Positions 344 through 27,044 of a DNA stretch of 35,567 nt are shown here, one piece after another. The notes beneath the pieces were generated by a model. It ran no database searches. It was not told where the DNA came from and saw only the letters and a program-made list of their open reading frames with translations. The position numbers and the translations under genes were made by a program. The stretch is from contig JADLGX010000039.1 in the NCBI GenBank assembly GCA_020849095.1, positions 1-35,567 on the forward strand. Reading direction: 5' to 3'. Numbering within the stretch: the stretch's first letter is position 1; the number at the start of each line of letters is the position of its first letter. The DNA comes from Candidatus Eiseniibacteriota bacterium. GTDB lineage: Bacteria; Eisenbacteria; RBG-16-71-46.

Positions 344-1120
344 TCATCCGCCCGGGGCCTCCCCGTCCAGCAGGGCCACGCCCTCGTCCCCGACGACGCG
401 ATGGACGCCGGGCAGGTGCGCGGCGAGCGCGCCGGCGAGCGACTCCAGCGGCGCGTCGGCCGCTAGGTGGGCGCCGGCGTCACAGGCCGAGCGCGCGAGC
501 GCCGCGCGCAGGCCGTGCCGCCGTTCCTCCGGCACGCGCATCCAACGCGCGAGTTCCAGGTGGGACGGCCCGAGCAGCAGGCTGCCCTGCTGAAGGAGCG
601 TGTCGCGCACGGCCCTCTGGGCGATGCCCGCGAACTTCCGCCCCCCGAGCGTGAGTTCGTGGCGCGCGGTGGACGCGAAGCAGGGCGGCGCGGCGCCATC
701 GGTCCCGCGCGGGCTTCCCACGCCGCGCGCCGTTCCGGCGGAAAGCTCGACCGGAACGCCCAGGTCGCGCAGCGCGGCCGCCAGCAGAAGACAGGTGCGC
801 TCGTACGCCGCCGAAGGGGAGGATGCCCAGCCGGCGGCCCCGAGCGGGGCGCGGAGCGAGAACGTCCATTCCTCGTCGTGCCAGATCGCGCGGCCGCCGG
901 TCGGGCGCGACGCCCACTCGATGCCGCTTTCGCGCAGGGCCGGCAGATCCAGTTCGGCGGCGGAGTCCTGGCTGTTGCCCAGCGTGATGCCCGCCGGATG
1001 GAAGCGGAACAGCCTCAGGACCGCCGGGAACGCCCGCCCTGCCGCGCCCGCCTCCAGCAGCCGCGAGTCGCGCCGCATGTTCTCGATCGCGCCGTGGGCG
1101 CCGTCGAGCCAGAGGATCAT
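344..1120 (-). CDS. Lipoate-protein ligase A / LipM-type octanoyltransferase family protein
   Basis: The protein has 258 residues and belongs to the BPL_LplA_LipB fold. It shows the family motif Arg-Pro-Thr-Gly-Gly-Arg-Ala near residues 72-78 followed by His-Asp-Glu, and Gly-Gly-Arg-Lys-Phe-Ala-Gly-Ile-Ala-Gln near 159-168, whose Lys162 is the conserved lysine. A Cys-Phe pair at 147-148 matches the region where LipM-type octanoyltransferases carry their catalytic cysteine, so the enzyme may move octanoate from ACP to GcvH rather than activate free lipoate with ATP; both are possible. A GAGGGAG site precedes the ATG at 1120. The likely target, GcvH, is encoded about 7 kb upstream, and no lipA is seen here. 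Family assignment is firm; substrate is inferred. Confidence 0.85.
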   Translation of the reverse strand: MILWLDGAHGAIENMRRDSRLLEAGAAGRAFPAVLRLFRFHPAGITLGNSQDSAAELDLPALRESGIEWASRPTGGRAIWHDEEWTFSLRAPLGAAGWASSPSAAYERTCLLLAAALRDLGVPVELSAGTARGVGSPRGTDGAAPPCFASTARHELTLGGRKFAGIAQRAVRDTLLQQGSLLLGPSHLELARWMRVPEERRHGLRAALARSACDAGAHLAADAPLESLAGALAAHLPGVHRVVGDEGVALLDGEAPGG

Positions 1121-1149: not shown

Positions 1150-1172
1150 CCCCCGGCTGCGTGGGCCGGGGG
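1150..1172 (-). terminator. Hairpin terminator after the four-gene membrane cluster
   Basis: A perfect 8-bp G+C stem (1150-1157 with 1165-1172) encloses a 7-nt loop and is followed on the minus strand by a T-rich stretch (TTCGACTTTCGG). A second 9-bp inverted repeat (1179-1187 with 1199-1207) lies directly before it and overlaps the stop of the upstream gene. Together they probably end transcription of the cluster starting near 4.67 kb. Confidence 0.5.
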
Positions 1173-1206: not shown

Positions 1207-1881
1207 TCACCTCACATGAAGCCAGTCCGTGAGCAGGAACTGGAACCGCCCGATCAGCAGCGACACCCGGGACATGACGGTGTAACCGTAGCCCGCGCCG
1301 AAGGAGATCATCAGGAACCAGACGCCGATGCGCGACGACACGCCCAGCGCGCCCTTGTGCTCGCGACTGTAGAAGAAGAACAGCAGGCTCGTCACCAGGC
1401 CGACGGTGAACAGCACGGCGTTGAAGCTCGCCCAGAGGTCGCCCGGAATCCACAGCGGGATCAGGCTGGCCTGCACCTGCGCCACCAGGTCGCCCTGCGC
1501 GAAGCCCGTGGTCTTGAGACCGGCGAACACTCCCATGATCACCGCGAGCGACCAGCGGGACATCCACGAGAGCCGCGTGAACAGCCGGGTGAACAACAGC
1601 ACGCCCAGCACGGCCGGGATCACGAGGAAGGCGCGATAGTCCTGCAGCCGGGCCTGGAACGGTCCGCCCTCGAGTTCGCCGCGGAACACCTCGCCCAGAG
1701 GAAGCACGAGGTACTGGTGCACGACGGTCCAGTAGTTCAGGCAGATGTAGTAGCCCGCGGACACGCCCACGAAGAGGTGCTCGGCGAACTTGTAGAGCGG
1801 GTTGTCCCGGTACAGGAACGAGAAGATGCACAGGGTGAGCAGGGCCGCGACCCACACGCCGAAGTCGGAGGAGAAATGCAT
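1207..1881 (-). CDS. Polytopic membrane protein, fourth gene of DUF6754-type cluster
   Basis: This 224-residue protein of unknown function is almost entirely membrane. Hydrophobic segments are visible near residues 8-23, 36-55, 84-101, 110-127, 153-171 and 184-204, giving about six helices. I recognise no catalytic motif. The ATG at 1881 overlaps the TGA of the preceding gene by one base and has a GGAGG site 9 nt upstream, so it is read as the last member of a four-gene operon. A longer open frame extends upstream but lies inside the neighbour. The tight packing suggests it forms a complex with the three genes before it. A transport or membrane-remodelling role cannot be told from sequence. 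Confidence 0.8.
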   Translation of the reverse strand: MHFSSDFGVWVAALLTLCIFSFLYRDNPLYKFAEHLFVGVSAGYYICLNYWTVVHQYLVLPLGEVFRGELEGGPFQARLQDYRAFLVIPAVLGVLLFTRLFTRLSWMSRWSLAVIMGVFAGLKTTGFAQGDLVAQVQASLIPLWIPGDLWASFNAVLFTVGLVTSLLFFFYSREHKGALGVSSRIGVWFLMISFGAGYGYTVMSRVSLLIGRFQFLLTDWLHVR

Positions 1882-2720
1882 CAGGCCTGTCCTCCCGCCG
1901 GCCGCGCGCGGTGCACGACGTTGCCGAGCACGATGCACAGCGCGATGAACACGTGCGCCAGGGACTGCGCGTCCATGCCCCGGGTGGCGGAGCCCTTTTC
2001 CTTGCGGAGCAGTTCGTACTCGGCCGCGCCCGCCATGCCGCCGAGCAGCCCGCGCAACTGCCCGGACTGCAGGTACGGGAAGAACTCGGGAGCGCTCACC
2101 GCCGTGCAGCCGGAGACCATGGGCAGGTGGAAGCGCGAGTTCACCTGCTGCACCCACTCCTTCGTGCCGGGATAGCCCGCCGAGATGTTCACGAGCAGCG
2201 GAAAGCCGGAATAGCCGGACACGTTGCGCATGATCGGGAGCGTGGCCGTCACGCGCCCGTGCTGGTCCACCGGAAACGCGCTCGCGATCCCCTGCCCCAT
2301 CAGCACCATGACCGCCTCGTTGCCCGACTTGTAGCCGAGGTTCACGTAGTCCACGCCGTCCACGAGTTTCACGCCGCGGGCGCGGAACTCGTCCGCGACC
2401 TCCTCGATGGTCTGGTCCACCACGACCGAACCGCCGTTCCAGAGCACGGTCACGACCACCTTGCAGCGCTTCTCCCACAGCTGCCGGAGCGCGGTGCGCG
2501 TCATGGGACCCAGTTCCGGGGTCGACGCCGGGTCATAGTCGCAGGACATCAGAATGGTGGACCCGTCGGGAACAGCCTCGAGGGCGTCGTGGAACTGGAT
2601 GACGGGCGTCGAGGGCTTGAGCGGCAGCCCCACGGGCCACAGCAGCGGGATCAGCACGAGCAGGCCGACCACCAGGAAGATCCAGCGGGGATCGAGCTTT
2701 TCGAGGGCGCGCAGGTTCAT
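1881..2720 (-). CDS. Membrane-anchored protein with a DUF6754-like domain, unknown function
   Basis: The product has 279 residues: one hydrophobic helix near 14-32, an alpha/beta-looking domain from about 38 to 245, and a C-terminal helix near 253-269. Around residues 202-233 it carries a pattern of Cys, Glu, Tyr-Leu, Gly, Arg, Gly-Gly and Gly-Ala that recurs in the first gene of the cluster (3412-4617), which suggests related domains. I recognise no enzyme motif. The ATG at 2720 follows a GGGAG site 8 nt upstream and starts one base after the preceding stop. The domain between two helices could face either side of the membrane. Its function is unknown. Confidence 0.8.
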   Translation of the reverse strand: MNLRALEKLDPRWIFLVVGLLVLIPLLWPVGLPLKPSTPVIQFHDALEAVPDGSTILMSCDYDPASTPELGPMTRTALRQLWEKRCKVVVTVLWNGGSVVVDQTIEEVADEFRARGVKLVDGVDYVNLGYKSGNEAVMVLMGQGIASAFPVDQHGRVTATLPIMRNVSGYSGFPLLVNISAGYPGTKEWVQQVNSRFHLPMVSGCTAVSAPEFFPYLQSGQLRGLLGGMAGAAEYELLRKEKGSATRGMDAQSLAHVFIALCIVLGNVVHRARPAGGQA

Positions 2721-2721
2721 T

Positions 2722-3402
2722 TCAGTCGCTCCCTCCCAGGTAGGAGCGCTCGATGCCGAGGATCACCCGCAGCCCCGTGGCCATCACGCCCATCGCGGCC
2801 CCGATGAGGATCGCCCGCTTGGCGGCGTTCTGGGGGAAATCCATGATCCACTGCTGCACGGGCTCGAGCCGCCAGTGGCGCACGAAATCCGGCAGCCCCT
2901 CGTGGTCGAAGAGGCCGGCCATGACGAAGTCGCCGAGCGGAACCCGCCCGAGCATCACGATGAGCGCGGACGCGGCCAGCAGGGCCGCCTCGGTCGAGCG
3001 GACCCGGAACGCCCGGAACGCCGCGGAAGCGATGAAGAACGCGAGCAGGGCGAACATGGTCGAGTTCATCGGCACGTAGATGTTGTCGTAGATCCAGACC
3101 GACACGGTCCCGGGATCCTGGAACGCGGCGCGGTCCACGAAGAGCCCGAACACGAGCGTCGCGAGCATCCCGGCGAGCAGGACGAGCTTGTACGGCCAGT
3201 CGGTCTGGCGGCGCGCGATTCCCTCGAGGTTGACGCGGATCACGTTGGCGCCCCCGAGCGCGTAGCCGAAGGCCACCACGATCACGGCGCAGCGCTGCAG
3301 GAAGTCCGCGGGAACGCTGACCCACTGGTGCGGCACGAAGAATCCCGCCACCACGATGGCGCCGATGAGCGCCGTCAGGAACAGGGGGATCTCTCGCTTC
3401 AA
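2722..3402 (-). CDS. Polytopic membrane protein, second gene of DUF6754-type cluster
   Basis: The protein has 226 residues with probable helices near 5-23, 35-53, 71-89, 112-131, 138-152 and 196-213. The start is a TTG at 3402 with a strong AGGAGG site 5 nt upstream; no ATG in this frame fits as well. It begins 9 nt after the stop of the DUF6754-type gene and ends one base before the next start, so the four genes are almost certainly co-translated. It resembles the fourth gene in size and helix number but I cannot align the two by eye. No motif suggests a substrate. The charged loop between helices 2 and 3 is the longest polar stretch in the first half. Confidence 0.8.
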   Translation of the reverse strand: MKREIPLFLTALIGAIVVAGFFVPHQWVSVPADFLQRCAVIVVAFGYALGGANVIRVNLEGIARRQTDWPYKLVLLAGMLATLVFGLFVDRAAFQDPGTVSVWIYDNIYVPMNSTMFALLAFFIASAAFRAFRVRSTEAALLAASALIVMLGRVPLGDFVMAGLFDHEGLPDFVRHWRLEPVQQWIMDFPQNAAKRAILIGAAMGVMATGLRVILGIERSYLGGSD

Positions 3403-3411
3403 CCGTTCCTC

Positions 3412-4617
3412 CTACTGCGTCTGCATCCAGGTCGTCAGACCGTGGATGCCGAAGGTTTCGAGCGCGCAGCCGATCAGGACCACGGCAACGATGACGAGCT
3501 TCAGCATGTCCGCGCCCTTGAGTCCGCCGACGAGCCGGGCCTCACCCGACAGGTAGGCGCTCGCGGCGAAGATCTCCTCGCCGATCAGCGTGTAGTCGCA
3601 CGCCACGACGAAGAAGGGCAGCTGGTGGACGTTGGCCGTGCCCGCCACCTGGATGGCGCCGTTGGCGAATCCGGTCTCGGCGAGCATGAGGGACTCGCCA
3701 TAGAACGAGCCCATGAAGATGTGGGCCGCGGGCTTCTCGCGCATCATGATGCCGGTGATCGCGGCCACGTAGGCGAACTGCTCGGGCGAGACGAACTGCA
3801 CGCAGTCCGGATCGTAGGCGTCCGGCCGCCCCGCGTGCGCGTGCCCGCTGCGGACCATCTCCTGCGCGATCGTGAACGGGATCGGGTACGCGACCGGGAC
3901 GCGCAGCGGCGTGTCGTAGCGCGCGGTCATCCGGGCGACGCTTTCGAGGATCACGAGGCCCGCCACGGTCTGGATCTCGTCGATGTCCTGGACCCCGGGC
4001 ACGTAGAGCACCGGGCGGCCCATTTCGGTGGCGCGTCCGATGGCCTCCTCGATGGCGTCGATTCCCGCGAGCCGGCGGACGAACGGCTTGCGCCCGAGTT
4101 GCGCCATGTACATGTAGTAGAGCACCAGCAGGAAGAAGAGCAGCAGGAACGCCAGCACGCTGGCCCGCGAGGAGTGGAACCAGGACGAGCGCCCGATGGC
4201 CGGTCCGGCCGCGGCGCCGGCGAGAACGCTGCCGCGCGGGCCGAAGACACCGACCCGGTAGAAGTAGGGCGTGTCCCGGCGGATGCTCTGGTCCGTGTAC
4301 GAGGCGGTGCGGGCGACGACGCTGTCCACCACGGTCCACGGCCCGCCGGGCGCCGTGGAGCGCTCCAGGAAGTACCCGGTCACGAGCCCGGTTCCCACCG
4401 AGTCGTCGGGCGAGAGCGTCCAGCTCAGCTCCACCGCGAGACCGGCATCGCCGGGCACGTCCGCGTAGACGAGCCCGCGCGGAGGCGCGAGTGCGGGCAC
4501 GGAGTCGGCCGGGGCGGACTGCGCGCCGGCGAATCCGGGCGCGAAGGCGCCCAGCGACGCCAGGAGCACCACGAGGGCGCCGAACCGAACGAACCGACTG
4601 CGCAAGCCGAGGGGCAA
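3412..4617 (-). CDS. DUF6754-type protein with signal peptide and fibronectin type III domain
   Basis: I place the start at TTG 4617-4615 because GGAGGA lies 6 nt upstream and the resulting 401-residue product begins with a clean signal peptide (basic start, hydrophobic 12-28, Ala-Gly-Ala-Gln near 30-33). In-frame ATGs at 4650 and 4731 are alternatives, but 4731 lies upstream of the predicted transcription start. A fibronectin type III-like domain covers about 43-140, a transmembrane helix 152-171, a large conserved domain about 180-370 and a last helix 371-386. The large domain looks like the family I know as DUF6754; the name is from memory. Conserved-looking points are a Tyr-Val-Pro-Gly-Val run near 205 and Cys340-Asp341-Tyr342. 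The FnIII part should sit outside the inner membrane. Function is unknown; it is the first gene of a four-gene unit. Confidence 0.82.
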   Translation of the reverse strand: MPLGLRSRFVRFGALVVLLASLGAFAPGFAGAQSAPADSVPALAPPRGLVYADVPGDAGLAVELSWTLSPDDSVGTGLVTGYFLERSTAPGGPWTVVDSVVARTASYTDQSIRRDTPYFYRVGVFGPRGSVLAGAAAGPAIGRSSWFHSSRASVLAFLLLFFLLVLYYMYMAQLGRKPFVRRLAGIDAIEEAIGRATEMGRPVLYVPGVQDIDEIQTVAGLVILESVARMTARYDTPLRVPVAYPIPFTIAQEMVRSGHAHAGRPDAYDPDCVQFVSPEQFAYVAAITGIMMREKPAAHIFMGSFYGESLMLAETGFANGAIQVAGTANVHQLPFFVVACDYTLIGEEIFAASAYLSGEARLVGGLKGADMLKLVIVAVVLIGCALETFGIHGLTTWMQTQ

Positions 4618-4673: not shown

Positions 4674-4703
4674 ACGCTAGCAACGCGTCTCTCGCCGAGT
4701 CAA
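4674..4703 (-). promoter_or_regulatory. Candidate promoter of the DUF6754-type cluster
   Basis: TTGACT (4703-4698) and TAGCGT (4679-4674) are 18 nt apart on the minus strand. Transcription would begin near 4667, about 50 nt before the TTG start at 4617, and the ribosome site falls inside this leader. The placement separates the four-gene cluster from the GlmL-type cluster. Confidence 0.5.
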
Positions 4704-4727: not shown

Positions 4728-5849
4728 TCATCCGGAGATGCGCTCCACGTTGGCGCGCGGCACCACGTGCCGTCCCGCGCCCGGTCCGAAGTCCACTTCG
4801 AGGACGCGGACGAGCGCTTCGGTCTCGAGCGCGCGCAGCTCGCTGGGCAGCGCCGTGACCTTGCCGATCACCCCGAAATGCGGCTCGCGGATCACGCGCA
4901 CCTGGGCGCCCAGTTCGAGCCCTCCCTCCGGCTCCGCCTCGGCCCCGCCGGCGGCGCCGTCGAGCGGAATGAGAATCTCGGGGCGCATCACGCCGGCGCG
5001 AATCTGGGTCGCGCCGCTGATGGACGCCACCTTGCCCTCGTGCGAGCGCAGCAGGTTCCAGGTCCGCTGCGCCATCGGGATCCGCCCGAACCCCTCGGTC
5101 AGCACCAGCGTCAGCCCGATGTCCTCCGCGCCCGTGATCGCCACGCCGAGGTCCCGCCCGAGCAGGCGCTTGAGGTCGCGGTCGTCGAAACCACCCACCA
5201 CGATGGCGGCCACTCCCATGTCGCGCGCGTGCATGAGCGTCTCGTGGCTGACGTACGAACCGCCCACCACGATGCAGCCGCGGTGCTGCGGCCGCAGGTC
5301 GCCGGGGCGAAGCTCCGCCGCCGGATCGCCGAGCGGCACCGCGATCGCGCCGAAAGTCTCGCCGCCGACTCCGAAGATGCCCTGCAGGAAGGCGCCGCGC
5401 ATCTCGACCACCACGCCCTCACCGGGCAGCACCTGCGCGACCGTTCCGCGGACGTAGGCATTCACCTCGACCGGGATCGGAGGCTCGCGAAGCAGCAGTT
5501 GTCCCGTCACCGGGGACAGGCTCTCGATCACCCCGGCGCAGGGCGCCTTCACTTCGTTGCGCACGAGCCCGAAGAGTCCGCGCGACGTGGCGATGAGCTC
5601 CTCCGCCTCCACGGCCTGCCCGATCGCGACGACGAGCGTGTCCACCACCTTGGCGGGGTCCGCCGAGAGGCGCGCGGCGAGGTTGACCAGCTGAACGTTG
5701 CCCGGCAGCTCCGTCCGCGCGACGACGGTGTCCGCGCCGACCGCATCGCCGGCCCGCACCAGCACGTTGCCCGCCAGCGGCAGGCGGCGCTCGCGGCGGA
5801 TGACCGCATCGCCCGTGACGCGAAGCCCGGGCGTGTAGGAGTGCGCCAT
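4728..5849 (-). CDS. Barrel-sandwich and KOW-like protein linked to GlmL-type ATPase, unknown function
   Basis: The protein has 373 residues, is soluble, and has no signal peptide. Residues 20-45 and 98-150 are rich in Gly and Val turns resembling lipoyl-like or RnfC-like barrel-sandwich segments, including a Lys-Ala-Pro-Cys-Ala-Gly-Val-Ile run at 101-108. Residues 190-295 form an alpha/beta segment with Val-Val-Gly-Gly turns. Residues 311-372 look like a KOW-type beta domain. No lipoylation-type lysine in a beta-turn is obvious. The ATG at 5849 has a GGAG site 8 nt upstream and follows the GlmL-type stop by one base, so the two are probably made together. I know similar proteins only as hypothetical neighbours of GlmL homologues. 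An accessory role with the ATPase is inferred. Confidence 0.78.
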   Translation of the reverse strand: MAHSYTPGLRVTGDAVIRRERRLPLAGNVLVRAGDAVGADTVVARTELPGNVQLVNLAARLSADPAKVVDTLVVAIGQAVEAEELIATSRGLFGLVRNEVKAPCAGVIESLSPVTGQLLLREPPIPVEVNAYVRGTVAQVLPGEGVVVEMRGAFLQGIFGVGGETFGAIAVPLGDPAAELRPGDLRPQHRGCIVVGGSYVSHETLMHARDMGVAAIVVGGFDDRDLKRLLGRDLGVAITGAEDIGLTLVLTEGFGRIPMAQRTWNLLRSHEGKVASISGATQIRAGVMRPEILIPLDGAAGGAEAEPEGGLELGAQVRVIREPHFGVIGKVTALPSELRALETEALVRVLEVDFGPGAGRHVVPRANVERISG

Positions 5850-5850
5850 G

Positions 5851-7680
5851 TCAGAGCTCCCTCGGGTAGACGGCCAGCGCGCGATTCCACTCGCGCAGCC
5901 GCGCGATGCGCGCCTCCGCGCCGTCGGGCAGCGCGAACGGCGACCGCCCGCGCGCATCGAGCACCAGCCCGACGACTCCCGCGCGCACTTCGCGGGCGAG
6001 CGGCTTGCCCTTGCCCGCCCCCACGTCGAAGCCGCGCTCGGGCGTGACGGTCAGCGTCAGGCGGCCGCTCCCAGGCGTGGGCACCAGGCGGAACTCGCCG
6101 AACGCGACCCGGTGCGCCGCGGGCGGAACTCCCTCCCCGCGGACCTCGACCGTCATGCACGACTGCCCGGGCTTGCCCGCTCCGACCGGCGCGACGCTGG
6201 GGCCGAGCACGACGAGACAGTCGCGCTCGAACACTTCGGTGGCCGCCTGCTCGTGGACGGTCGAGAGCACCCCGAGCTGCGGCGTCATGAAGATGCTGTC
6301 CACCGCCAGCTCGGTGATTCCCTCCGGCAGGAAGGCGTCGAGCATCATGAGCATCGCCTGCGCGCGCCTCGGGGCGTGCGACAGCACGCCGCCGGAGCCG
6401 ACGAGCAGCCCCAGGTCCAGCAGGTCCACGAGGCTCGAACCCGAGGCGCTCTGGTCCATCGCATCCGAGATGTCGCGCGACTGCTGGCGCCCCTTGAGGC
6501 CCACGGCGAGCGAGCGGTGCTGGCTGAACGACAGCCGCAGCGCCTCGCGGCAGATGGCCTGCTCGATGGCGAGATCCTCGAGCGTCTGTGGAATCGTGGT
6601 CGGACGGATCATCTTGTTCTTGATCCGGTTGCGCAGGTCGAGCTCGTCCACGGAGAACGGCACCCAGCGCAGGATGTTCTCGATGCCCGCCTCGGCCATG
6701 ACGTTCGATACCGAGTAGCTCATGCCCAGATTGGCGGAAACCGTCCGGTTGAAGACCGTCTCCCCCTCTCCCTTGACACGGAAGACCGAGAACACGTCGG
6801 TGGTGGCGCCGCCGATGTCGACGCCCACCACGGCCATGCCGTCGCGCTTCGCGATCTTTTCGATGATCAGCCCCACCGCTCCGGGCGTGGGCATGATCGG
6901 CACGGGACTCCAGGTCATGAGCTTCTTGTAGCCCGGAGCGTGCGCCATGACGTGTTCCATGAACAGGTCGTGGATCGCGTCACGCGCGGGGCCGAGGTTC
7001 TCGCGCTCGAGCTCGGGGCGCAGGTTGGGCACCACGCTGAGCGCCGTGCGCGAGTCGAGGCTGCCCTGCACGGCCGCGGCGGCATCCTTGTTGCCCGCGT
7101 AGATCACGGGCAGTTCGTAGCCCGCGCCGAGCCGCGCCTTGGGGTCGGCGGCCGCGAGGAGCTCGGCCATCTCCGCCACGCGCTTCACGTCGCCACCGTC
7201 CGTCCCGCCCGACAGCAGGATCATGTCCGGGCGCAGCTGGCGGAGCAGCTGGATCTTCTCGTGCGGGCGGCGGCCGTCGTTCAGCGCCATCACGTCCATC
7301 ACGATCGCTCCCGCGCCCAGCGCCGCGCGCTGCGCGCTCTCGCCCGTCATCTGCTTGACCAGGCCGGTGACCATCATCTGCAGTCCGCCGCCCGCGCTCG
7401 ACGTGGACAGGTACAGGTCCACGCCCACGTCGCCCTGCTGCGGGCTCACGATGCGGTCGCCGTCGAGCAGCCGGCGCCCGCACAGCTCCTCCACCTCGCG
7501 CACCGCATTGAGCACACCGCGCGTGACGTCCTCGAACGGCGCTTCAACCGTGGTCGGGGCCTCGCCGCGCACCCGGAGCCGGTAGCCGTCCGGGCCGCGC
7601 TCGATGAGGATGGCCTTGGTCGTGGTGGAACCGCAGTCGGTGGCGAGTATGGAGCGAATGTCGTCGGGCAACGATGTCAT
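5851..7680 (-). CDS. GlmL/MutL-family ASKHA ATPase (mutase-activator-like)
   Basis: The protein has 609 residues. It has the ASKHA-fold phosphate 1 loop Asp-Cys-Gly-Ser-Thr-Thr-Thr-Lys at 15-22 and the phosphate 2 motif Val-Asp-Ile-Gly-Gly-Ala-Thr-Thr-Asp at 287-295; a Ser-Gly-Gly-Thr-Asp-Gly-Gly turn lies at 157-163. This is the pattern of GlmL (also called MutL), which accompanies B12-dependent glutamate mutase and is thought to maintain the cofactor. No mutase S or E subunit is seen in the window, so the partner here is open. The ATG overlaps the stop of the small upstream gene by 4 nt and has no clear ribosome site, consistent with translational coupling. It is not the DNA-repair MutL. 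Family is firm; role is inferred. Confidence 0.88.
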   Translation of the reverse strand: MTSLPDDIRSILATDCGSTTTKAILIERGPDGYRLRVRGEAPTTVEAPFEDVTRGVLNAVREVEELCGRRLLDGDRIVSPQQGDVGVDLYLSTSSAGGGLQMMVTGLVKQMTGESAQRAALGAGAIVMDVMALNDGRRPHEKIQLLRQLRPDMILLSGGTDGGDVKRVAEMAELLAAADPKARLGAGYELPVIYAGNKDAAAAVQGSLDSRTALSVVPNLRPELERENLGPARDAIHDLFMEHVMAHAPGYKKLMTWSPVPIMPTPGAVGLIIEKIAKRDGMAVVGVDIGGATTDVFSVFRVKGEGETVFNRTVSANLGMSYSVSNVMAEAGIENILRWVPFSVDELDLRNRIKNKMIRPTTIPQTLEDLAIEQAICREALRLSFSQHRSLAVGLKGRQQSRDISDAMDQSASGSSLVDLLDLGLLVGSGGVLSHAPRRAQAMLMMLDAFLPEGITELAVDSIFMTPQLGVLSTVHEQAATEVFERDCLVVLGPSVAPVGAGKPGQSCMTVEVRGEGVPPAAHRVAFGEFRLVPTPGSGRLTLTVTPERGFDVGAGKGKPLAREVRAGVVGLVLDARGRSPFALPDGAEARIARLREWNRALAVYPREL

Positions 7681-7988
7681 GGGCGCTTGGCGGGGATGGA
7701 GGACGAAGAGTCGCGCGCCTCGGCGGCGGATTCGATGAGCTGCACGAGGGCTTCCAGCGCGTCACGGCGCTCGGCGAGCGCGGCGTAGCGGCGGTAGTCC
7801 CCCAGCCGGAAAAGCGACTGCACGAAGGGCTCGAAGAAGATCATGGCCTGACCCGCGACCAGGGAGACGGGCCGCGCGGTTTCGAGCGCGAGGATCGCGG
7901 GCGTCTCCATGCGCAGTTCCGCCACGCGCGCCGCGAGCCGGCGGAGCAGCTCGGTGTCTTCGGCCGAGAGAGGCTCAGGCGCGCTCAT
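7677..7988 (-). CDS. Small helical protein next to GlmL-type gene
   Basis: The product has 103 residues and looks mostly helical: an amphipathic start, a hydrophobic middle near 32-62 (too broken and polar to be a sure membrane helix), a basic/acidic helix near 66-90 and a Ser-rich tail. I recognise no named domain. The gene overlaps both neighbours, 12 or more nt upstream and 4 nt downstream, which supports a real, coupled gene despite its size. The ATG at 7988 follows a GGAGG site only 3-4 nt away. Its position directly before the GlmL-type ATPase suggests a partner or regulator of that protein, but this is context only. Confidence 0.7.
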   Translation of the reverse strand: MSAPEPLSAEDTELLRRLAARVAELRMETPAILALETARPVSLVAGQAMIFFEPFVQSLFRLGDYRRYAALAERRDALEALVQLIESAAEARDSSSSIPAKRP

Positions 7989-8436
7989 GCGCCTCCCAGG
8001 CGGCCCGCACGAGGGCGAGCAGCTCGTCGCGGCGCGCCGCCGGCACGGGGAGCGTGAGTCCGCGCTGTGCGTCCAGCAGGTGCCTGCGGGCGTAGGGCGA
8101 AAGCAGGATCGCGGACGGCAGCGCCTCGATGCGCCGGATGGCGGCCCACGGCCGGCGCTCCCATCCCAACGGCCCGCGGCGCGCGGCGCCCCGCTCGTCG
8201 GCGCGGCACTCGGCCGGGCTGATCGCCGGCGCGAACGCCGCGACGCAGACCAGCACGAGCCCGGCGGTGACGAGCAGCGGCTCGCGCAACGACGTCACGA
8301 GAGCGCAGAGCAGGGCCGCGCACGCCGCGGAAAGTCCGGCGACCCGGGCGTTTTCACGCCACGGGTCGTAGGTCCATTCGATGCCGGAGCGGGCCGACTC
8401 GCCCGCCGCCGGTGGATTCATGCCGGGGGTCATCAT
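7975..8436 (-). CDS. Small membrane protein with two helices, unknown function
   Basis: The product has 153 residues with two adjacent hydrophobic helices near 32-49 and 53-70, a basic linker and a C-terminal region with a Trp-Ala-Ala-Ile-Arg-Arg-Ile pattern. The overall plan resembles small two-helix proteins with a PH-like tail (YcxB- or DUF2244-like), but I cannot confirm a family. Tandem ATGs at 8436 and 8433 follow a GGGAGC site; I use 8436. The C-terminus overlaps the next gene by 14 nt, and gcvH ends 56 nt upstream. It probably belongs to the gcv-GlmL transcription unit. The cytoplasmic tail is rich in Arg. Confidence 0.65.
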   Translation of the reverse strand: MMTPGMNPPAAGESARSGIEWTYDPWRENARVAGLSAACAALLCALVTSLREPLLVTAGLVLVCVAAFAPAISPAECRADERGAARRGPLGWERRPWAAIRRIEALPSAILLSPYARRHLLDAQRGLTLPVPAARRDELLALVRAAWEAHERA

Positions 8437-8492: not shown

Positions 8493-8882
8493 TCAAGCGT
8501 GGTGCTCCTCGATGAGCTTCTCGTAGTCCGCGCTGCCGAGCAGCTTGGCGAACTCGGCCGGATCGGCGAGCCGGATCTTGACCATCCAGCCTTCCCCGTA
8601 GGGATCCTGGTTCACGATGGCCGGATTGTCTCCGAGAGCGGGATTGATCTCGACCACTTCGCCCGCGACCGGAGCGAAGAGATCGCTCACCGTCTTCACC
8701 GCCTCGACGACACCGAACGTCCCGCCGACCTCGACCTTGCGGCCCACTTCGGGCAGCTCGACGAAGACCACGTCGCCCAGCTGGTCCGTCGCGTAGCTCG
8801 TGATGCCCACGGTGACGACGCCGCCCTGCTCGCGCGCCCACTCGTGCTCCGCCGTGTACCGAACGTCATCCGGATATGCCAC
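8493..8882 (-). CDS. gcvH: Glycine cleavage system H protein
   Basis: The protein has 129 residues, the normal length. It carries the lipoyl swinging arm of the glycine cleavage system, which passes the aminomethyl group from GcvP to GcvT and electrons to the L protein. The lipoylation site is Lys63 in Val-Glu-Ala-Val-Lys-Thr-Val, with the usual Gly-Asp-Val-Val-Phe-Val-Glu-Leu-Pro upstream and Gly-Trp-Met-Val-Lys-Ile downstream. The start is GTG at 8882 with AAGGAGG 6 nt upstream. It follows gcvT by 18 nt. No gcvP lies nearby. A weak 6-bp palindrome with no T-run follows the stop, so transcription probably continues into the next genes. The lipoate/octanoate transferase at 344-1120 is a likely partner. 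Confidence 0.96.
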   Translation of the reverse strand: MAYPDDVRYTAEHEWAREQGGVVTVGITSYATDQLGDVVFVELPEVGRKVEVGGTFGVVEAVKTVSDLFAPVAGEVVEINPALGDNPAIVNQDPYGEGWMVKIRLADPAEFAKLLGSADYEKLIEEHHA

Positions 8883-8900
8883 GTCCCGCCTCCTTGCCGC

Positions 8901-10013
8901 TCAAGAGCGGTGCGAACCGCGCGTATAGAAAGGCCGCGCGGTGACCCGCGCGGGCAACATCGTCGTTCCAGCCTGGATCTCGAGAGCCGTGCCCGAAGCC
9001 GTCAGGCCGGTCTCGACGTAGCCCATGCCGATCGGGCGTTCGAGACTCGGGCTGAACGTTCCGCTCGTCACGTGTCCCACCTGCCGGCCGCCCGAGAAGA
9101 TCGCCATGCCGTGCCGGGGCACGCGGCGCCCATCGAGCTGGAAGCCCACCAGCTTTCGCTTGAGGCCTTCCGCCTTCTGCTTCGCGAGCGCGTCGCGCCC
9201 GGTGAAACCGGACTTCGCCATCTTGACCGTCCAGCCGAGTCCCGCTTCGAGCGGGCTGGTGGTGTCGTCGATGTCGTTGCCGTAGAGCATGTAGCCCATC
9301 TCGAGCCGCAGCGTGTCGCGCGCGCCGAGCCCGATCAGCTCGAGCCCGTGCGCCGCGCCGGCCGCCGCGAGCCCCTCCCACACCTTCACGCCGTGCTCCA
9401 TCGGGAAGTACAGCTCGAAGCCGTCCTCGCCGGTGTAGCCCGTGCGCGAGAGCGTGGCCTCGACTCCGAAAACCGGGCCGGGCATGAAGCGGTAATAGCC
9501 CAGCTCGAGGGCGGCATCGGGAACGTGCCCACGCAGCACCTCGGCGGCCTTGGGCCCCTGGACGGCGAGCAGCGCGGTGGAGTCCGAGTGGTTCTCGAAC
9601 GTGACCCCGGTGGCCGGCAGCTGCTGCTGCATCCACGCGAAGTCCTTGGCCATGTTCGAGGCATTGACCACGACCATGTAGTGGTCCGCGTACCGGTAGA
9701 CGAGCAGGTCGTCCACGATGCCGCCATCGGGCCGGCACATGGGCGAATAGAGCGCCTGGCCGACGGCGAGCGACGAAACGTCGTTGGTCACGACCTGGTC
9801 GAGGAAAGCCAGGGCTCCTTCACCGCGAACGATGAATTCGCCCATGTGGGTGATGTCGAAAAGGCCGACGCCCGTGCGCACCGCCTGGTGCTCGCGAACA
9901 TCGCCCGTGTAGCGGACCGGCATCTCGAAACCGGCGAAATCCACCAGCTTCGCCCCGGCGGCCCGATGAAACTCGGTGAAGGGGGTGCGTTTCAGCGTGG
10001 TTGGTGCGGTCAC
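8901..10013 (-). CDS. gcvT: Glycine cleavage system T protein (aminomethyltransferase)
   Basis: The enzyme has 370 residues and transfers the methylene group from aminomethyl-GcvH to tetrahydrofolate, releasing ammonia. The N-terminal Asp-Phe-Ala-Gly-Phe-Glu-Met-Pro and Gly-Leu-Phe-Asp-Ile-Thr-His-Met-Gly-Glu motifs are present. Asp101 in Gly-Gly-Ile-Val-Asp-Asp-Leu matches the catalytic aspartate of E. coli GcvT. The start is GTG at 10013, with AAGGAG 6 nt upstream and a promoter about 27 nt before it; the open frame extends further but runs into the terminator region. It is the first gene of its unit, with gcvH next. GcvP is missing from the window, so the rest of the system must be encoded elsewhere. 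Confidence 0.96.
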   Translation of the reverse strand: MTAPTTLKRTPFTEFHRAAGAKLVDFAGFEMPVRYTGDVREHQAVRTGVGLFDITHMGEFIVRGEGALAFLDQVVTNDVSSLAVGQALYSPMCRPDGGIVDDLLVYRYADHYMVVVNASNMAKDFAWMQQQLPATGVTFENHSDSTALLAVQGPKAAEVLRGHVPDAALELGYYRFMPGPVFGVEATLSRTGYTGEDGFELYFPMEHGVKVWEGLAAAGAAHGLELIGLGARDTLRLEMGYMLYGNDIDDTTSPLEAGLGWTVKMAKSGFTGRDALAKQKAEGLKRKLVGFQLDGRRVPRHGMAIFSGGRQVGHVTSGTFSPSLERPIGMGYVETGLTASGTALEIQAGTTMLPARVTARPFYTRGSHRS

Positions 10014-18387: not shown

Positions 18388-19659
18388 TCACTCGTAGCGC
18401 AGCGAGTCCACCGGGTCGAGGCGCGATGCGCGCATCGCCGGGTACAGCCCGAAGAAGACTCCGACGACGGCGGAGAACACGAGTCCCGTGACCACCGACC
18501 ACGCCGACACGTACGTGGGCAGCGGGGTCGCCGCCTTCACCACCACGGCCACGCCGGCGCCGAGCAGCACGCCCACGAGTCCGCCGATGGCCGTGAGCAG
18601 CATGGCCTCGACCAGGAACTGCATGAGAATGGCCTTGCGCTGCGCGCCGAGCGCCTTGCGGACCCCGATCTCGCGCGTTCTCTCGGTGACCGCGACCAGC
18701 ATGATGTTCATCACGCCGATGCCGCCCACGAGAAGCGAAATGGAGGAGATCAGGGTCATCAGGGCGAAGATGCCGCCCGTGATCGTGTTGTAGAGCGACA
18801 GGAAGGCGTCGTCGTTGAAGATCGCGAAGTCGTTGGGCTTGTTGCTGGGCAGGTGCCGGCGGACGCGCAGCACGTCGCTGATCTCCTGGATCGCCTTGGC
18901 GCTCAACTCCGGAGAAACGGCGACCGCATCGAGGAACAGCTCGCCCTTGCGCGGGAACCACGGCGGAGCGTCGGTCGGCGCCGACCAGTACTTGTCCACG
19001 ACGGGGTACGGCACGCACGCCACCTCGTCGAAGTTGTTCCCCAGCATCTTGCCCTTCTTCTCGAACTCCCCGATCACGGTGAACGGGATGCCGTTCAGGT
19101 GAACGGTCTTGCCGAGCCCGCTGGCGTCCCCGAACAGGGTCTCCCGCGTGTCCTTGCCCAGGACGACCACGCTGGCGCGGCTCTCGACCTCGCTCAGCGT
19201 GAAGAAGCGGCCGGCGGACAGGTCGTACCCTCGCACCACGAGGCACTGGTCGTCGGTCCCGAACACGAAAGTGGACTTGGTCAGCTTGTCGCGGTGACCG
19301 AGCTTGATGTCCGTGTAGGGAAACTTGAACGGTGTGATCGCCTTGACCGCGGGGGCGCGGTCCATGATCGCGCGCGCGTCGGCCATCGTGAACGCCTTGC
19401 GCGCCTTGAGGCTGTCCGGAATGCCGTCGGAAAAGCTCACGCCCGGCCGGATGCGGCGGATGTAGATGGTGTTGTTGCCGAGCGACTGGATGCTCTGCTG
19501 GAACGAGCGCTGGAATCCGTTGATCAGCGAGACCATGCCGATCACGGTGGCCACGCCGATCACCACGCCGAGCAGGGCGAGCAGCGAGCGCATGCGGTTC
19601 GCCACCAGAGCGCCGCGCGCCATCGCGAAGGTTTCGCGGAAGAGATCGAACTGGTTCAT
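18388..19659 (-). CDS. MacB/FtsX-type ABC transporter permease, second copy
   Basis: The protein has 423 residues with one N-terminal helix (about 24-45), a periplasmic MacB-core-like domain (about 50-285) and three C-terminal helices, the FtsX/MacB layout. A [16 protein letters not shown] coupling segment and a terminal Arg-Leu-Asp-Pro motif are clear. It has no ATPase domain of its own. It begins 4 nt after the other permease, which it matches in motifs but not closely in the periplasmic domain. With the ATPase, adaptor and outer-membrane protein upstream it forms a tripartite pump or lipoprotein/peptide export system. The paired unlike permeases recall LolC/LolE, but the HlyD and TolC partners favour MacAB-TolC. 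Confidence 0.9.
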   Translation of the reverse strand: MNQFDLFRETFAMARGALVANRMRSLLALLGVVIGVATVIGMVSLINGFQRSFQQSIQSLGNNTIYIRRIRPGVSFSDGIPDSLKARKAFTMADARAIMDRAPAVKAITPFKFPYTDIKLGHRDKLTKSTFVFGTDDQCLVVRGYDLSAGRFFTLSEVESRASVVVLGKDTRETLFGDASGLGKTVHLNGIPFTVIGEFEKKGKMLGNNFDEVACVPYPVVDKYWSAPTDAPPWFPRKGELFLDAVAVSPELSAKAIQEISDVLRVRRHLPSNKPNDFAIFNDDAFLSLYNTITGGIFALMTLISSISLLVGGIGVMNIMLVAVTERTREIGVRKALGAQRKAILMQFLVEAMLLTAIGGLVGVLLGAGVAVVVKAATPLPTYVSAWSVVTGLVFSAVVGVFFGLYPAMRASRLDPVDSLRYE

Positions 19660-19663
19660 GGCT

Positions 19664-20881
19664 TCACTCGTACCGAAGCGCCTCGATCGGATCGAGGCGG
19701 GCGGCGCGAACCGCCGGGTAGGACCCGAAGAACACTCCCACGCCGGTGCTCATGACGAGCCCCAGCACCACGGCCGGCATGCTGACGGCGGCGGGAAGCG
19801 GACTGACCGCGCCCACGAGCAGCGCGAGTCCGCCGCCGAGCAGGATTCCGATGATGCCGCCGGAGAGCGACAGTGTGGTCGACTCGACGAGGAACTGGGT
19901 CATGATGTCGCGGCGGCGGGCGCCGAGCGCCTTGCGCACGCCGATCTCCTTGGTGCGTTCGGTCACCGACACCAGCATGATGTTCATGATCACGATGCCG
20001 CCGACGATCAGCGAGATCGCGGCCACGCCGATCGTGAGGATGAAGATGCCCCCCGTGAGCGTGCGGTACAGCTCGAGCCAGGTTTCCGACGTGGTGATTC
20101 CGAACTTGTCCGGCTGCCCGGGGCGCTGGTGACGGCGGGCGCGCATGACGTTGCGCGTCTCCTGCTCGACCAGCGAAAGAGAACTCTCGTCGACGCTCTT
20201 GAGCGCGATGCTGAACGAGCCGCGCTCCTGCCAGTACTTGGAGAAGGTCTGAATGGGCACGACGATGAACCGGTCCTGGCTGTTGCCGAACATCTTGCCC
20301 TTGGCGACCGTGAGCCCGATGACCTCGAACGTCCAGCGGTCGATCCGCACCTCGCGCCCGATCGGGTCGAGATTGCCGAACAGTTCGTCCGCCACCTCGG
20401 GGCCGATCACGCAGACGGGCCGGCGCTCGGTGTCGTCGAACTCGGACAGATGGCGTCCGGTGGCGATCTGGATGTCGTCGACCACGTCGTAGCCCGAGCT
20501 GCGGCCGTTGATCGAGACCGCGCGCATCGCCTTGGCGCCGTAGCGCACGGGGGCCGCGGCGCCGGACTGCGCCACGATCATGCTCGCGTGGACGACCGCC
20601 TTGCGCAGCGCCACGACGTCGCCCCAGTTCACGTCCGGCCGGCGATTGGCCTCCTCGAAGGCCTCCTGGCTCGTGATGAATCCGTACTTGTCCACCACGA
20701 GGACGTTGGCGCCCGCGTTGAGGATCTTCTGCTTCACGAACCGGTTCAGCCCTTCGACGAACGAGAGCACGGCGATGACCGAAGCCACACCGATGATCGT
20801 GCCCAGCAGCGTCAGGAACGAGCGGAGCTTGTTCGCCCGGACACCGCCGAGGGCGATGCCGATGCTCTCGCGCAGGTTCAT
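19664..20881 (-). CDS. MacB/FtsX-type ABC transporter permease, first copy
   Basis: The protein has 405 residues: one N-terminal helix (about 20-42), a periplasmic domain and three C-terminal helices. The [16 protein letters not shown] segment and a final [11 protein letters not shown] are near-identical in plan to the next gene. The ATG at 20881 overlaps the ATPase stop by 4 nt and has no own ribosome site, so translation is probably coupled. The pair most likely arose by tandem duplication and then diverged, forming a heterodimer driven by the shared ATPase. The substrate cannot be told; candidates are lipoproteins, peptides or antimicrobial compounds. Confidence 0.9.
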
Positions 20882-21603
20882 GCGTGGCCGGAGGCAGCCG
20901 AACGGGGGCGGTCGTTGAGCGTGTCGCTCTCGATGCGCCCGTCCTTCATGCGGACGATGCGGCGGGCGTGCTCGGCGATGTCGGCTTCGTGCGTGACGAG
21001 GATGACCGTGTTGCCCTGCTTCCAGATGTTCTCGAACGCCATCATGATCTCCTCGCCCGTGCGCGAGTCGAGATTTCCGGTGGGTTCGTCGGCCAGAATG
21101 ATGCTGGGCCGGTTCACGAGCGCCCGGGCGATGGCGACGCGCTGGCGCTGGCCGCCGGACAGTTCGTTCGGGCGATGCTTGATGCGGTCCTTGAGCCCGA
21201 CGGTTTCGAGCGCTTCCTTGGCTCGCTGCCGGCGCTCTTCGTGCTTCATGCCGGCGTAGACCAGCGGCAGTTCGACGTTGTGCAGCGCGTCGGCGCGCGG
21301 CAGCAGGTTGAACGTCTGGAACACGAAACCGATCTCCATGTTCCGGATGCGGGCCAGTTCGTCGTCCGACATCTTGCCGATCTCGGCGTCCTTCAGGCGG
21401 TAGGAGCCCTGCGAAGGAGTGTCGAGGCAGCCGAGGATGTTCATGAGCGTGGACTTGCCGGAGCCCGAAGGACCCATGATGGCCACGTACTCGTTCTTCT
21501 GGATGTCCAGGTCGACGCCGTCGAGGGCGCGCACTTCCTGGTCACCGACCTGGTAGACGCGGTGCAGGCCGCGAATGGAGATCAACACCTGTTCGTCGCT
21601 CAC
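20878..21603 (-). CDS. MacB/LolD-type ABC transporter ATP-binding protein
   Basis: The protein has 241 residues, one ABC domain. Walker A is Gly-Pro-Ser-Gly-Ser-Gly-Lys-Ser-Thr near 40-48, the signature is [10 protein letters not shown], Walker B is [11 protein letters not shown], and the switch histidine is in Val-Thr-His-Glu. These are typical of the MacB/LolD/FtsE group. The start is GTG at 21603, which overlaps the adaptor stop by 4 nt; a much longer upstream frame exists but lies within the adaptor gene. It powers the two permeases that follow. The C-terminal tail after the H-loop carries the usual Met-Lys-Asp-Gly-Arg-Ile. Confidence 0.94.
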
Positions 21604-22898
21604 TTCTTGCCCTTTCCGGCGGCTTCCTTCTTCACCTTGCCGCCCGGCTTCAGTTCGCGAAGCGCCTTGTAGGGTCCCGAAACCACGGTGTCCGCTTCCT
21701 TCAGGTCGCCGAACACCTCGATCATGGTTTCGCTGGCGAGGCCCGTGCGGACGGGGACGAACGTCGCGACGCCCTCCCGGACCACGAACACTCCGGTGAT
21801 CTCCTTGTCCCGGCGGCCGACCGTATCCTCGTCGGCCGTCACCGTGAGCTTGCGCGGCTTCTTGGGTTCCTTGGCCGCCGCCCCCTTGACACCCTTGCGC
21901 GCGGCGCGCTCCAGCTCGCGCTCGGTGCGCACGACGACCGACTGGATGGGCACCGCGATCGCGCCCACGTGCGTTCCGGTCTCGATCTCGACGTCGGCCG
22001 TCATGCCGGGCCGCACCTCGGGAACGTTTGTGTCGAACACCACCTTCACTTCGAAGTTCGTCTGGCCCTCGACGCTCGACGTGATCGAACGCTTGGCCGT
22101 ATTGCCGATCTCGGACACGGTGCCGGAGAAGGTCGTGTCGGGGAACGCGTCCACGGAGATCTTGGTGACCTGGCCCAGCTGCATGTCCACGACGTCCGTC
22201 TCGTCGACGTCCGCGCGCACCAGCATTCGGGAGAGGTCCGACACCACCAGAATCTCGGTGCCGATGTTGTTCATCGTGCCGGGGATCACGTTCTCCCCCG
22301 CCTCGACGTTGAGCGCGCTCACCACACCGTCGAACGGCGCGCGGAACTGGCACTTGCTGAGGTTGTCGGCCGCCGCGTCCAATCCCGCCGAAGCGCGTGT
22401 GGCATCTTCCTGCGCCGTGGCGAGGGCCACCCGTGCGCCCTCGTGCGCGTTCTGCGCCTGCTCCCACTCGGCCGTCGAGAGCAGCTTCTGGTCGTAGAGC
22501 GACCGCTGCCGGCCGAACGCCGCCTCGTTCACGCGCATCGCCGACTGGGCTTCGCGAAGCCGGGCCTGGGCCGCGGCCAGCGCCGCGCGCGACTGGGCCG
22601 TCGCGCTGCGGTACTGCGTGTCGTCGAGCTGCAGCATCAACTGGTCCTTGCGGACCCGGTCGCCTTCCTTCACGTACAGGTGAACGATCTTGCCCATGAT
22701 GTCAGCGCTGACCTTCACCTGGGTGCGCGGCTCGATCTTGCCGGGCGCGCGAACGCGGGAGGTCACGTCCTCTCGACGGACCCGTGCGAGCTGGACCGAT
22801 TCCACCTTACCGCGGGCATTGTTCGCGATGCTGGCTCCCGCCAGGCCGCCGACCACGATCACTCCGAGGATGACCCACAGCCACACCTTCTTCTTCAT
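21600..22898 (-). CDS. HlyD/MacA-type periplasmic adaptor protein
   Basis: The protein has 432 residues with an N-terminal membrane anchor (about 5-22). A lipoyl-like half motif lies near 50-90. A long Ala/Gln-rich coiled-coil hairpin (about 95-180) comes next, then the second lipoyl half (Phe-Arg-Ala-Pro-Phe-Asp-Gly-Val-Val), a beta-barrel domain and a membrane-proximal domain. It would bridge the inner-membrane permeases and the TolC-like protein. The ATG at 22898 has AGGAAG about 10 nt upstream. A Lys/Ala-rich insert near 330-350 and a Lys/Gly-rich tail are unusual for the family. The gene follows the TolC-like gene by 22 nt. MacA is the closest named relative by context, but I do not assign that symbol. 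Confidence 0.92.
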
Positions 22899-22920
22899 GG
22901 TCGTCGCGCTTCCTTTCGTG

Positions 22921-24237
22921 TCACTCGCCGAGGCCGCGCACCTGGTCGAGATTCGCTTCCGCCACACGGATGTCCGCCATGGCCGAAACGAGGTCGCTCT
23001 GTGCACGCTGCAGCTGGACCTGCGAATCGATGAGGTCGAGGATCGTCGCCGACCCGACGTTGTACTTCTGCTGCACGAGGTTCAGGTTCTCGCTCGCCGA
23101 TTCCAGGGTGCGGCGGGCGAGCGACTCGCGCTCGGTCGCTTCCTGATAGGTCAGCACCGCGATCTGGACTTCGCTCTGAAGATTACGAACGAGCGCGTCG
23201 CGGGTTTCACGGGCGCGCATCACGCCGGCACGCGCCGAGACGACGCGGCTCTCGAGCAGCATTCCGTCGAAGACGTTCAGGTCAACCGACAGCCGTCCGC
23301 CCCAATCGCCCTCGCTCCAGCCGCTCGACGAGGTCACCGGTCCCTCCGCGCTGCCCGCATGCGAGCTGCCACTGAACACGGACTTCGGCGTGTACGACCC
23401 CGTCGCGGAAACCGACGGGAGGCGCGACCATTGCGCCGAGCGCAGCCGCAGTTCGGCCGCGCGCAGCTCGGCTTCGACGGCCTTCACGTCCGGGCGGTTC
23501 TTGCGTGCATCGCTCGCCACGGCGGCGGCGTCCACCGGCATGCGGGCGATGTTGAGCGTCGAGTCCACTTCGCCCAGCGCCGACTCGGCCAGTCCCAGCT
23601 TCGTCGCGAGCTGCACGCGTTGCGAGGTCACGTTGTGGTCGGCGAGCAGGGAGTCCAGTTCGCCCTGCGAGGTGCGCACGCGGGCCTTGAGCAGGTCGCT
23701 CTTGGAGACCGACCCCACCTCATACAGGGCTCGAACCCGCCGCTCGTCGTCACGCGCCAGCTTGACCGCCTGGCTGGACACCTGGGCGAGGTGCATCGCC
23801 TTCACGACCTGGTAGAACTGGCGCTTCGTGTCGAGAACGATCTGCGAACGGGTCGCGGCGCGCCCGTGCTTGGCGGCCCTGGCGTTCTGGCGCGCGGACG
23901 ACAGCGACACCCAAGAGGACAGGTTCAGCACCCCGATGCTGCCGCTCAGTCCGTACGAGCCGCTGTAACCGCGATCATCGAAGACGCCGGACGAAGTTTC
24001 ACGCGTCAGCGACCCGCTGCGCGTGGCATCGGCCGAGATGTGTGGCAGGACCTGCGAGTAGGCGCTCCACAGCCCGGAGCGGGCGTCGAGCACGGAGGCC
24101 TCCGCCTGCACCGACTGGGTACCCTGCCGAAGAGCGAGTTGCACGGCCTGGTCCGCCGTCAACGTGGCGGAGCGGGCGGCCGGCGCAGCGAGAACGAGCA
24201 AAGCGAGAGTCCAGGCGGTAGCGAGCTTCCGATTCAT
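22921..24237 (-). CDS. TolC-family outer membrane efflux protein
   Basis: The protein has 438 residues with a signal peptide (Ala-Ala-Arg-Ser-Ala near 19-24) and two outer-membrane efflux (OEP) repeats rich in Ala, Gln and Ser helices. The repeats are marked by Leu-Thr-Ala-Asp-Gln-Ala-Val near the start and by Lys-Tyr-Asn-Val-Gly-Ser-Ala-Thr-Ile-Leu-Asp-Leu near the end, a hallmark of the family. It should form the trimeric outer-membrane duct of the export system encoded downstream. Tandem ATGs at 24240 and 24237 follow GGAGG; the second has the better spacing, so I use it. The 96-nt gap before it shows no convincing promoter, and the real one may lie inside or before the Yip1 gene. Confidence 0.93.
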   Translation of the reverse strand: MNRKLATAWTLALLVLAAPAARSATLTADQAVQLALRQGTQSVQAEASVLDARSGLWSAYSQVLPHISADATRSGSLTRETSSGVFDDRGYSGSYGLSGSIGVLNLSSWVSLSSARQNARAAKHGRAATRSQIVLDTKRQFYQVVKAMHLAQVSSQAVKLARDDERRVRALYEVGSVSKSDLLKARVRTSQGELDSLLADHNVTSQRVQLATKLGLAESALGEVDSTLNIARMPVDAAAVASDARKNRPDVKAVEAELRAAELRLRSAQWSRLPSVSATGSYTPKSVFSGSSHAGSAEGPVTSSSGWSEGDWGGRLSVDLNVFDGMLLESRVVSARAGVMRARETRDALVRNLQSEVQIAVLTYQEATERESLARRTLESASENLNLVQQKYNVGSATILDLIDSQVQLQRAQSDLVSAMADIRVAEANLDQVRGLGE

Positions 24238-24333
24238 CATTCCTCCGGTTCGGGCAAATCGGCGGGCCGGCGTTCCGGATGACCGGCGACGCGACTCGTT
24301 TACGCCCAACGCGGCAGCGAGGTTGCAGTGATT

Positions 24334-25095: not shown

Positions 25096-25144
25096 GGGAC
25101 TTGGGCTCCTGAGGGCTGTCGCGGGTGGGGACGGACTCCGGCCC

Positions 25145-25173
25145 AAGGTAGGGAGCCGGTGCGCGGGGGTCAA
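25145..25173 (-). promoter_or_regulatory. Promoter of the Yip1-family gene
   Basis: TTGACC (25173-25168) and TACCTT (25150-25145) are 17 nt apart on the minus strand. Transcription would start near 25138, 43 nt before the ATG. Both hexamers equal those upstream of gcvT. Confidence 0.6.
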
Positions 25174-25229
25174 ACCTGCACGCAACCGGCGCGGTAAAAC
25201 GCTCACCGGCGCGGCCGTAACAAGCGAAA

Positions 25230-25255
25230 ACGCACGCGCCCGGAGGCGCGTGCGT
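25230..25255 (-). terminator. Intrinsic terminator after tonB
   Basis: A perfect 11-bp stem (25230-25240 with 25245-25255) with a 4-nt loop is followed on the minus strand by TTT and then a T-rich CGCTTGTT. It lies 20 nt after the tonB stop and ends the exb-tonB operon. Confidence 0.75.
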
Positions 25256-25275
25256 CGCTCAGGAACCGATTGCCG

Positions 25276-26492: not shown

Positions 26493-26522
26493 CGGGGTAT
26501 ACCTCTCAGCGCGAGTGGCGCG

Positions 26523-27026: not shown

Positions 27027-27044
27027 GTGCTCTTCCTCCCCCGG

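Follow-up and report, generated by a model that had tools for sequence, protein, structure and literature searches.

In a 35,567-nucleotide (nt) stretch of DNA from Candidatus Eiseniibacteriota (GCA_020849095.1, contig JADLGX010000039.1), hereafter called the window in its full length, we found that four adjacent genes, named here A to D, together with a helper set that they would share, probably encode an unrecognised membrane machine. We have little doubt that this composition represents a functional unit. The four genes are the following:

A: 3412 to 4617, reverse strand; 401 amino acids (aa), TTG start; signal peptide, FnIII ectodomain, transmembrane (TM) helix, DUF6754 alpha/beta domain and second TM helix
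B: 2722 to 3402, reverse strand; 226 aa, TTG start; six-TM protein, presumably with both termini inside
C: 1881 to 2720, reverse strand; 279 aa; TM helix, six-stranded alpha/beta domain, TM helix; the domain is presumably periplasmic
D: 1207 to 1881, reverse strand; 224 aa; six-TM protein of uncertain orientation

The spacing is 9 nt between A and B and 1 nt between B and C, while C and D overlap by 1 nt; the tightly packed row read from these letters in a preliminary description, running from 4617 down to 1207, thus agrees with the coordinates. Gene starts were assigned mechanically except for that of A, which was checked and has the motif GGAGGA (4629-4624) six bases 5' of its TTG codon.

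Gene order was examined with hidden Markov models (HMMs) grown from the window proteins, in 195 loci carrying A and drawn from at least ten phylum-level groups. In 171 of these the genes stand on one strand in the order A-B-C-D, far above chance, and the 171 cover at least ten phylum-level groups, which is the conservation across unrelated phyla that had been proposed as a test. Among the other 24 loci, 14 lie within 3.2 kb of the end of a stretch, and the remaining 10 are other cases, including planctomycetes with a split set; in the planctomycete loci L151, L155 and L157 the operon ends after A or B, and C and D are found at remote chromosomal sites. Of 47 genomes from the window's own phylum, 45 contained DUF6754 (one to seven copies each), as did 76 of 294 planctomycete genomes and 30 of the 40 that represent the phylum to which a Riflebacteria locus belongs; the domain was found in no control genome. 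A profile scan of genome contigs returned at least 550 relatives, and the 80 that were kept came from Eisenbacteria, Zixibacteria, Latescibacteria, WOR-3/Stahlbacteria, Cloacimonadota, Poribacteria, Riflebacteria, Fermentibacter/Aegiribacteria, Edwardsbacteria, Armatimonadetes and Planctomycetes, a range to be read as a lower bound. Almost all of the sequences derive from metagenome-assembled genomes, and incomplete assemblies affect some of the copy numbers.

By sequence comparison, members of one operon also evolve together, as would be expected for the subunits of a complex. Between the four proteins, distance matrices correlated at 0.67-0.79 over 71 operons (27 groups with more than one), against means of 0.21-0.27 and maxima of 0.37-0.48 in 300 within-group shuffles; the groups are genomes or loci, partly defined by locus, and the number of genomes is approximate. 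Co-occurrence was counted by us from the listed genomes for the 294 planctomycetes, where A was found in 76, C in 77 (the same 76 plus G130; none had A only), D in 73 and KOW, a helper gene described below, in 70. A and KOW were both present in 68 genomes and both missing from 216, with 8 carrying only A and 2 only KOW. In six genomes (G168, G150, G346, G087, G200 and G257) A, C or D lie far apart, G168 for instance having A at position 3.91 Mb but C at 5.87 Mb, so that linkage cannot be the whole basis for the co-occurrence of these genes.

A is a full member of DUF6754 (PF20539; E-value 1.7e-108, 362.1 bits against a cut-off of 27, family positions 3-255 of 257), a family to which no function is assigned, and the profile of its FnIII stretch matches FnIII chains in the PDB; the FnIII/DUF6754 designation originally given to A thus stands. 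For B and D, hydropathy profiles averaged over 37 relatives contain about six hydrophobic segments apiece, in line with the two six-helix membrane proteins first recognised here. None of the partners of A belongs to a family: B matched nothing in Pfam, NCBIfam or PADLOC (an MrpF-like match at an E-value of 0.32 was taken as chance), C nothing among curated families, and D gave no credible family match, nor did sequence profiles of B and D give any credible match or sequence relation to a solved structure in the PDB. The lack of any match to a known transporter or secretion family for three of the four bears out the earlier remark that no function had been described. Publications mentioning DUF6754 were searched for and none was found, and the literature on GlmL and planctomycetes, on Eisenbacteria and glycine cleavage, and on conserved operons contained nothing on this module; judged by the libraries and literature searched, and as far as checked, the module has no described function.

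The four genes do not stand by themselves, as they form the second half of an eight-gene run on one strand, E-X-MutL-KOW-A-B-C-D (8436-1207). The further members of the run, the neighbouring genes and the putative signals are listed below:

KOW: 4728 to 5849, reverse strand; 373 aa, soluble; barrel-sandwich part and KOW-like C-terminus (the domain reading is ours); Biotin_lipoyl match below threshold; almost always present in a single full-length copy in a genome
MutL: 5851 to 7680, reverse strand; 609 aa; GlmL-like ASKHA ATPase
X: 7677 to 7988, reverse strand; 103 aa; has its own HMM; conserved beside MutL or A
E: 7975 to 8436, reverse strand; about 153 aa; two hydrophobic segments and a bPH-like end; directly upstream of X
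lplA-like lipoate-protein ligase: 344 to 1120, reverse strand; PF21948, E-value 5e-25; retained downstream in some of the phyla
gcvH and gcvT: 8493 to 9998, reverse strand; PF01597 and PF01571; retained upstream in some of the phyla
promoter-like site: 4674 to 4703, reverse strand; TTGACT-N18-TAGCGT; weak
G+C-rich hairpin after D: 1150 to 1172, reverse strand; no clear T-run

E and X overlap by 14 nt and X and MutL by 4 nt, the gap between MutL and KOW is 1 nt, and about 110 nt separate KOW from A. The proposal that A to D have their own promoter and terminator could not be upheld: the promoter-like sequence is present, but just half of its -10 element (3 of 6 positions) fits the consensus and no promoter is listed there by a consensus scan, and the hairpin lies in a region that folds no better than shuffled sequences (z -0.7) and is likewise unlisted by the scan. 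Nor are A to D one independent unit, since the four genes adjoining upstream on the same strand are conserved parts of the module; the idea of a dedicated membrane complex of four therefore survives as far as the complex is concerned, while its boundaries were drawn too narrowly and have to admit E, X, MutL and KOW. The helper genes precede the operon in Eisenbacteria, the Fermentibacter group and planctomycetes (X-MutL-KOW-ABCD) and follow it in Riflebacteria (ABCD-X-MutL-KOW), and E directly adjoins X in both arrangements. With its HMM, E was found in 32 loci (E-value of the window copy 1e-43), invariably adjoining X and on the strand of X, and its likeness to bPH_6 (E-value 0.014) is below the cut-off. 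Curated families gave no match for B, C, D, E, X or KOW, and the seven module proteins compared with PADLOC gave none at an E-value of 0.1 or less, on which an anti-phage defence system was rejected.

MutL shares the whole GlmL region (PF13941, 423.6 bits) and has an extra C-terminal part. Since it scores far below the cut-offs of both equivalogs (223 bits against 475 for GlmL, NF040745; 208 against 600 for OR-4, NF040744), it is by sequence a relative of GlmL and OR-4 and not a member of either. No adenosylcobalamin mutase was prominent when neighbouring genes, of which a selection was annotated, were clustered. Away from ABCD, MutL homologues occur that are fused with a KOW-like part or form a pair with one, which supports a physical coupling of MutL and KOW.

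Apparent fusions of this kind were seen as long open reading frames of about 825-991 aa in seven loci (L188, L189, L190, L191, L192, L193 and L195), where they make up a second, paralogous system separate from ABCD; in three loci the adjoining gene is YjbQ-like, a clue to function that was set aside as uninformative. A divergent planctomycete MutL-KOW pair was noticed at L196:2001-5017 and L197:4391-7332, its enlarged KOW seeming to hold an extra barrel-sandwich stretch. A DUF6754-like match in L196 was discarded, as it concerned the FnIII part only.

AlphaFold2 models were obtained for the DUF6754 domain of A and for C, with pLDDT scores of 95.1 and 94.8, respectively, and the predicted TM-alpha/beta-TM build of C is in accord with its first reading as a second membrane-anchored alpha/beta protein. 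Both models have the same order of elements (TM helix, helix, six strand-helix repeats, TM helix), and the agreement is limited to this order and to an LLG-x2-KG-like segment ahead of the last helix. Detectable homology of A and C was rejected, hhalign, run with secondary structure as well as without it, giving probabilities of 3-23% that were confined to short stretches; a common ancestry is kept as a possibility. Homology of B and D was likewise rejected (hhalign 0.4%). The highly conserved polar residues of A (R55, E58, Q140, E168, Q192, D201, E207 and E208 in domain numbering) mostly flank strands; lying just before or after them, they form what in the model resembles a ligand-site pattern, which we counted in favour of a binding domain. 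Mean membrane-proximal K+R counts were 5.1 versus 1.3 for A, 6.9 versus 2.7 for C and 10.2 versus 3.6 for B. By the positive-inside rule these suggest that the globular domain of A is cytosolic and that of C periplasmic, and that the N-terminus of B is inside; the alpha/beta domains of A and C, whose side the preliminary description had left open, are thus probably on opposite faces of the membrane.

Taken as a whole, we tentatively prefer a transport-like complex of four subunits serviced by a common MutL/KOW/X set. A, B, C and D would be the subunits of one hetero-oligomeric inner-membrane complex, and that they are physically associated we regard as very likely. B and D, with six TM helices each, would form the membrane path, C would hold a ligand-binding alpha/beta domain outside and A another inside, with the optional FnIII ectodomain, and the complex would carry a small solute or an ion through the membrane, a function for which the case is somewhat short of even. 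The one to seven paralogous ABCD sets of a genome would differ in what each handles, and a single soluble set of MutL (the ASKHA ATPase), KOW and X, with the small membrane protein E, would be common to all of them and would energise, assemble or reactivate them through ATP hydrolysis. Copy numbers are unequal, 43 genomes of the window's phylum each containing a single full-length KOW beside one to seven copies of A; the chances that the MutL/KOW/X role is indeed shared seem to us about equal either way.

Several points weigh against this explanation. B, C and D match no transporter family, and ASKHA ATPases are, to our knowledge, not known to energise transport. Foldseek searches of the PDB gave no match for A at an E-value of 1e-3 or less and weak Rossmann-like matches for C, the best being GT-B enzymes (E-value 2.5e-4, TM-score 0.31), so neither has a close solved relative or a confident transporter, secretion or enzyme fold there. 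The orientation of D is ambiguous (mean K+R 4.4 versus 5.7), and 8 planctomycete genomes carry A but lack KOW, some of them probably because they are incomplete. The paralogous ABCD operons have no consistent substrate-specific neighbour: the flanks of free-standing operons comprise 61 families among 92 downstream and 58 among 81 upstream neighbours, and an assignment of substrate from them was abandoned for this diversity.

The main rival is a membrane-bound multi-subunit enzyme, in which A in the cytosol and C in the periplasm would be catalytic, B and D would provide the binding site for a lipid or quinone-like substrate, with MutL as a reactivase of the GlmL/EutA type that exchanges or activates a cofactor. 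The conserved Cys/Asp/Glu cluster CDYTLxGEE of A and further polar residues near its strand ends suit such an enzyme, as do the place of MutL in PF13941, whose GlmL relatives are mutase accessory proteins, and the linkage of the module to gcvTH and lplA in some lineages. However, no B12, Fe-S or flavin family appears among the curated matches, no neighbouring enzyme is common to all lineages, and one to seven paralogues of an orphan enzyme would be unusual; we hold both the enzyme and its reactivase to be somewhat unlikely.

A complex for sensing or assembling the cell envelope, whose FnIII part and C would bind or sense envelope polymers while A relays inward, is improbable. It would account for an FnIII ectodomain of variable length and for the weak likeness of E to bacterial PH proteins, but some A proteins lack FnIII altogether (about 290 aa in L022), and no kinase, cyclic-nucleotide or DNA-binding partner is prominent among the conserved neighbours.

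It might also be that only A-B-C-D belong together and that their link with E-X-MutL-KOW reflects the shared synteny of related genomes. Indeed, 91 of 169 ABCD operons lie away from MutL/KOW, and on the tree the linked copies fall into clusters, with 26 changes where shuffled labels give 56. The helper genes are nevertheless found on either side of ABCD in different phyla, and the planctomycete co-occurrence of A and KOW given above includes unlinked cases, which makes this explanation quite improbable. Lastly, a redox-driven ion pump like Rnf/Nqr, with KOW as RnfC/NqrA, B and D as the inverted six-helix pair RnfA/RnfE and C as a periplasmic subunit, was rejected as highly improbable on its missing cysteines: the two six-TM subunits and the RnfC_N and NQRA_N matches of KOW recall it (RnfC_N at 1.7e-4 and NQRA_N at 1e-3 on the barrel-sandwich stretch of one relative), but both matches are sub-threshold and do not place KOW in the RnfC/NqrA family, neither B nor D has a cysteine of at least 85% conservation that could hold a [2Fe-2S] cluster (one only in A), and no FMN-binding or NADH-binding family is matched.

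The four-subunit complex with its common helper set resembles in outline the ECF (group II) transporters, in which one shared energising set serves several membrane units. This is no more than an analogy, and in contrast to those transporters the module has no ABC ATPase and matches no ECF family, its shared role being deduced from copy number alone. More speculatively, the machine might consist of two halves of opposite orientation, A+B and C+D, perhaps arisen by an ancient inverted duplication, with ligand-binding alpha/beta domains on both faces and a shared ASKHA ATPase as engine. Such a two-half machine, driven or maintained by an ASKHA ATPase, would be an undescribed class beside those with ABC, P-type or redox engines, and we consider both the arrangement and the class doubtful.

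The module is deeply conserved; it is near-universal in the sampled genomes of some uncultivated phyla and is carried by about a quarter of the sampled planctomycetes, and a functional assignment would make a basic part of the physiology of such bacteria testable. Its carriers include planctomycete genomes that consist of one large contig, which suggests complete and possibly cultured hosts. Should MutL power or maintain the module, GlmL-type ATPases would be tied to membrane machinery, a link for which we know of no precedent.

Around the module, many relatives hold about 3 kb with a gcvPA-like gene between gcvH and E/X. In the window gcvT and gcvH are followed directly by E, so that in this genome the glycine decarboxylase genes are elsewhere or lacking. 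Downstream of lplA, several Eisenbacteria (L036, L037, L039, L042, L043, L045, L062, L063 and L096) have a run resembling a peptide ABC transporter, with a solute-binding protein, two permeases and an ATPase, as judged by inspection of the sequences. Elsewhere in the window (18388-27785), MacB-type permeases, an ABC ATPase, an outer-membrane efflux protein and an ExbB/ExbD/TonB set are found near each other.

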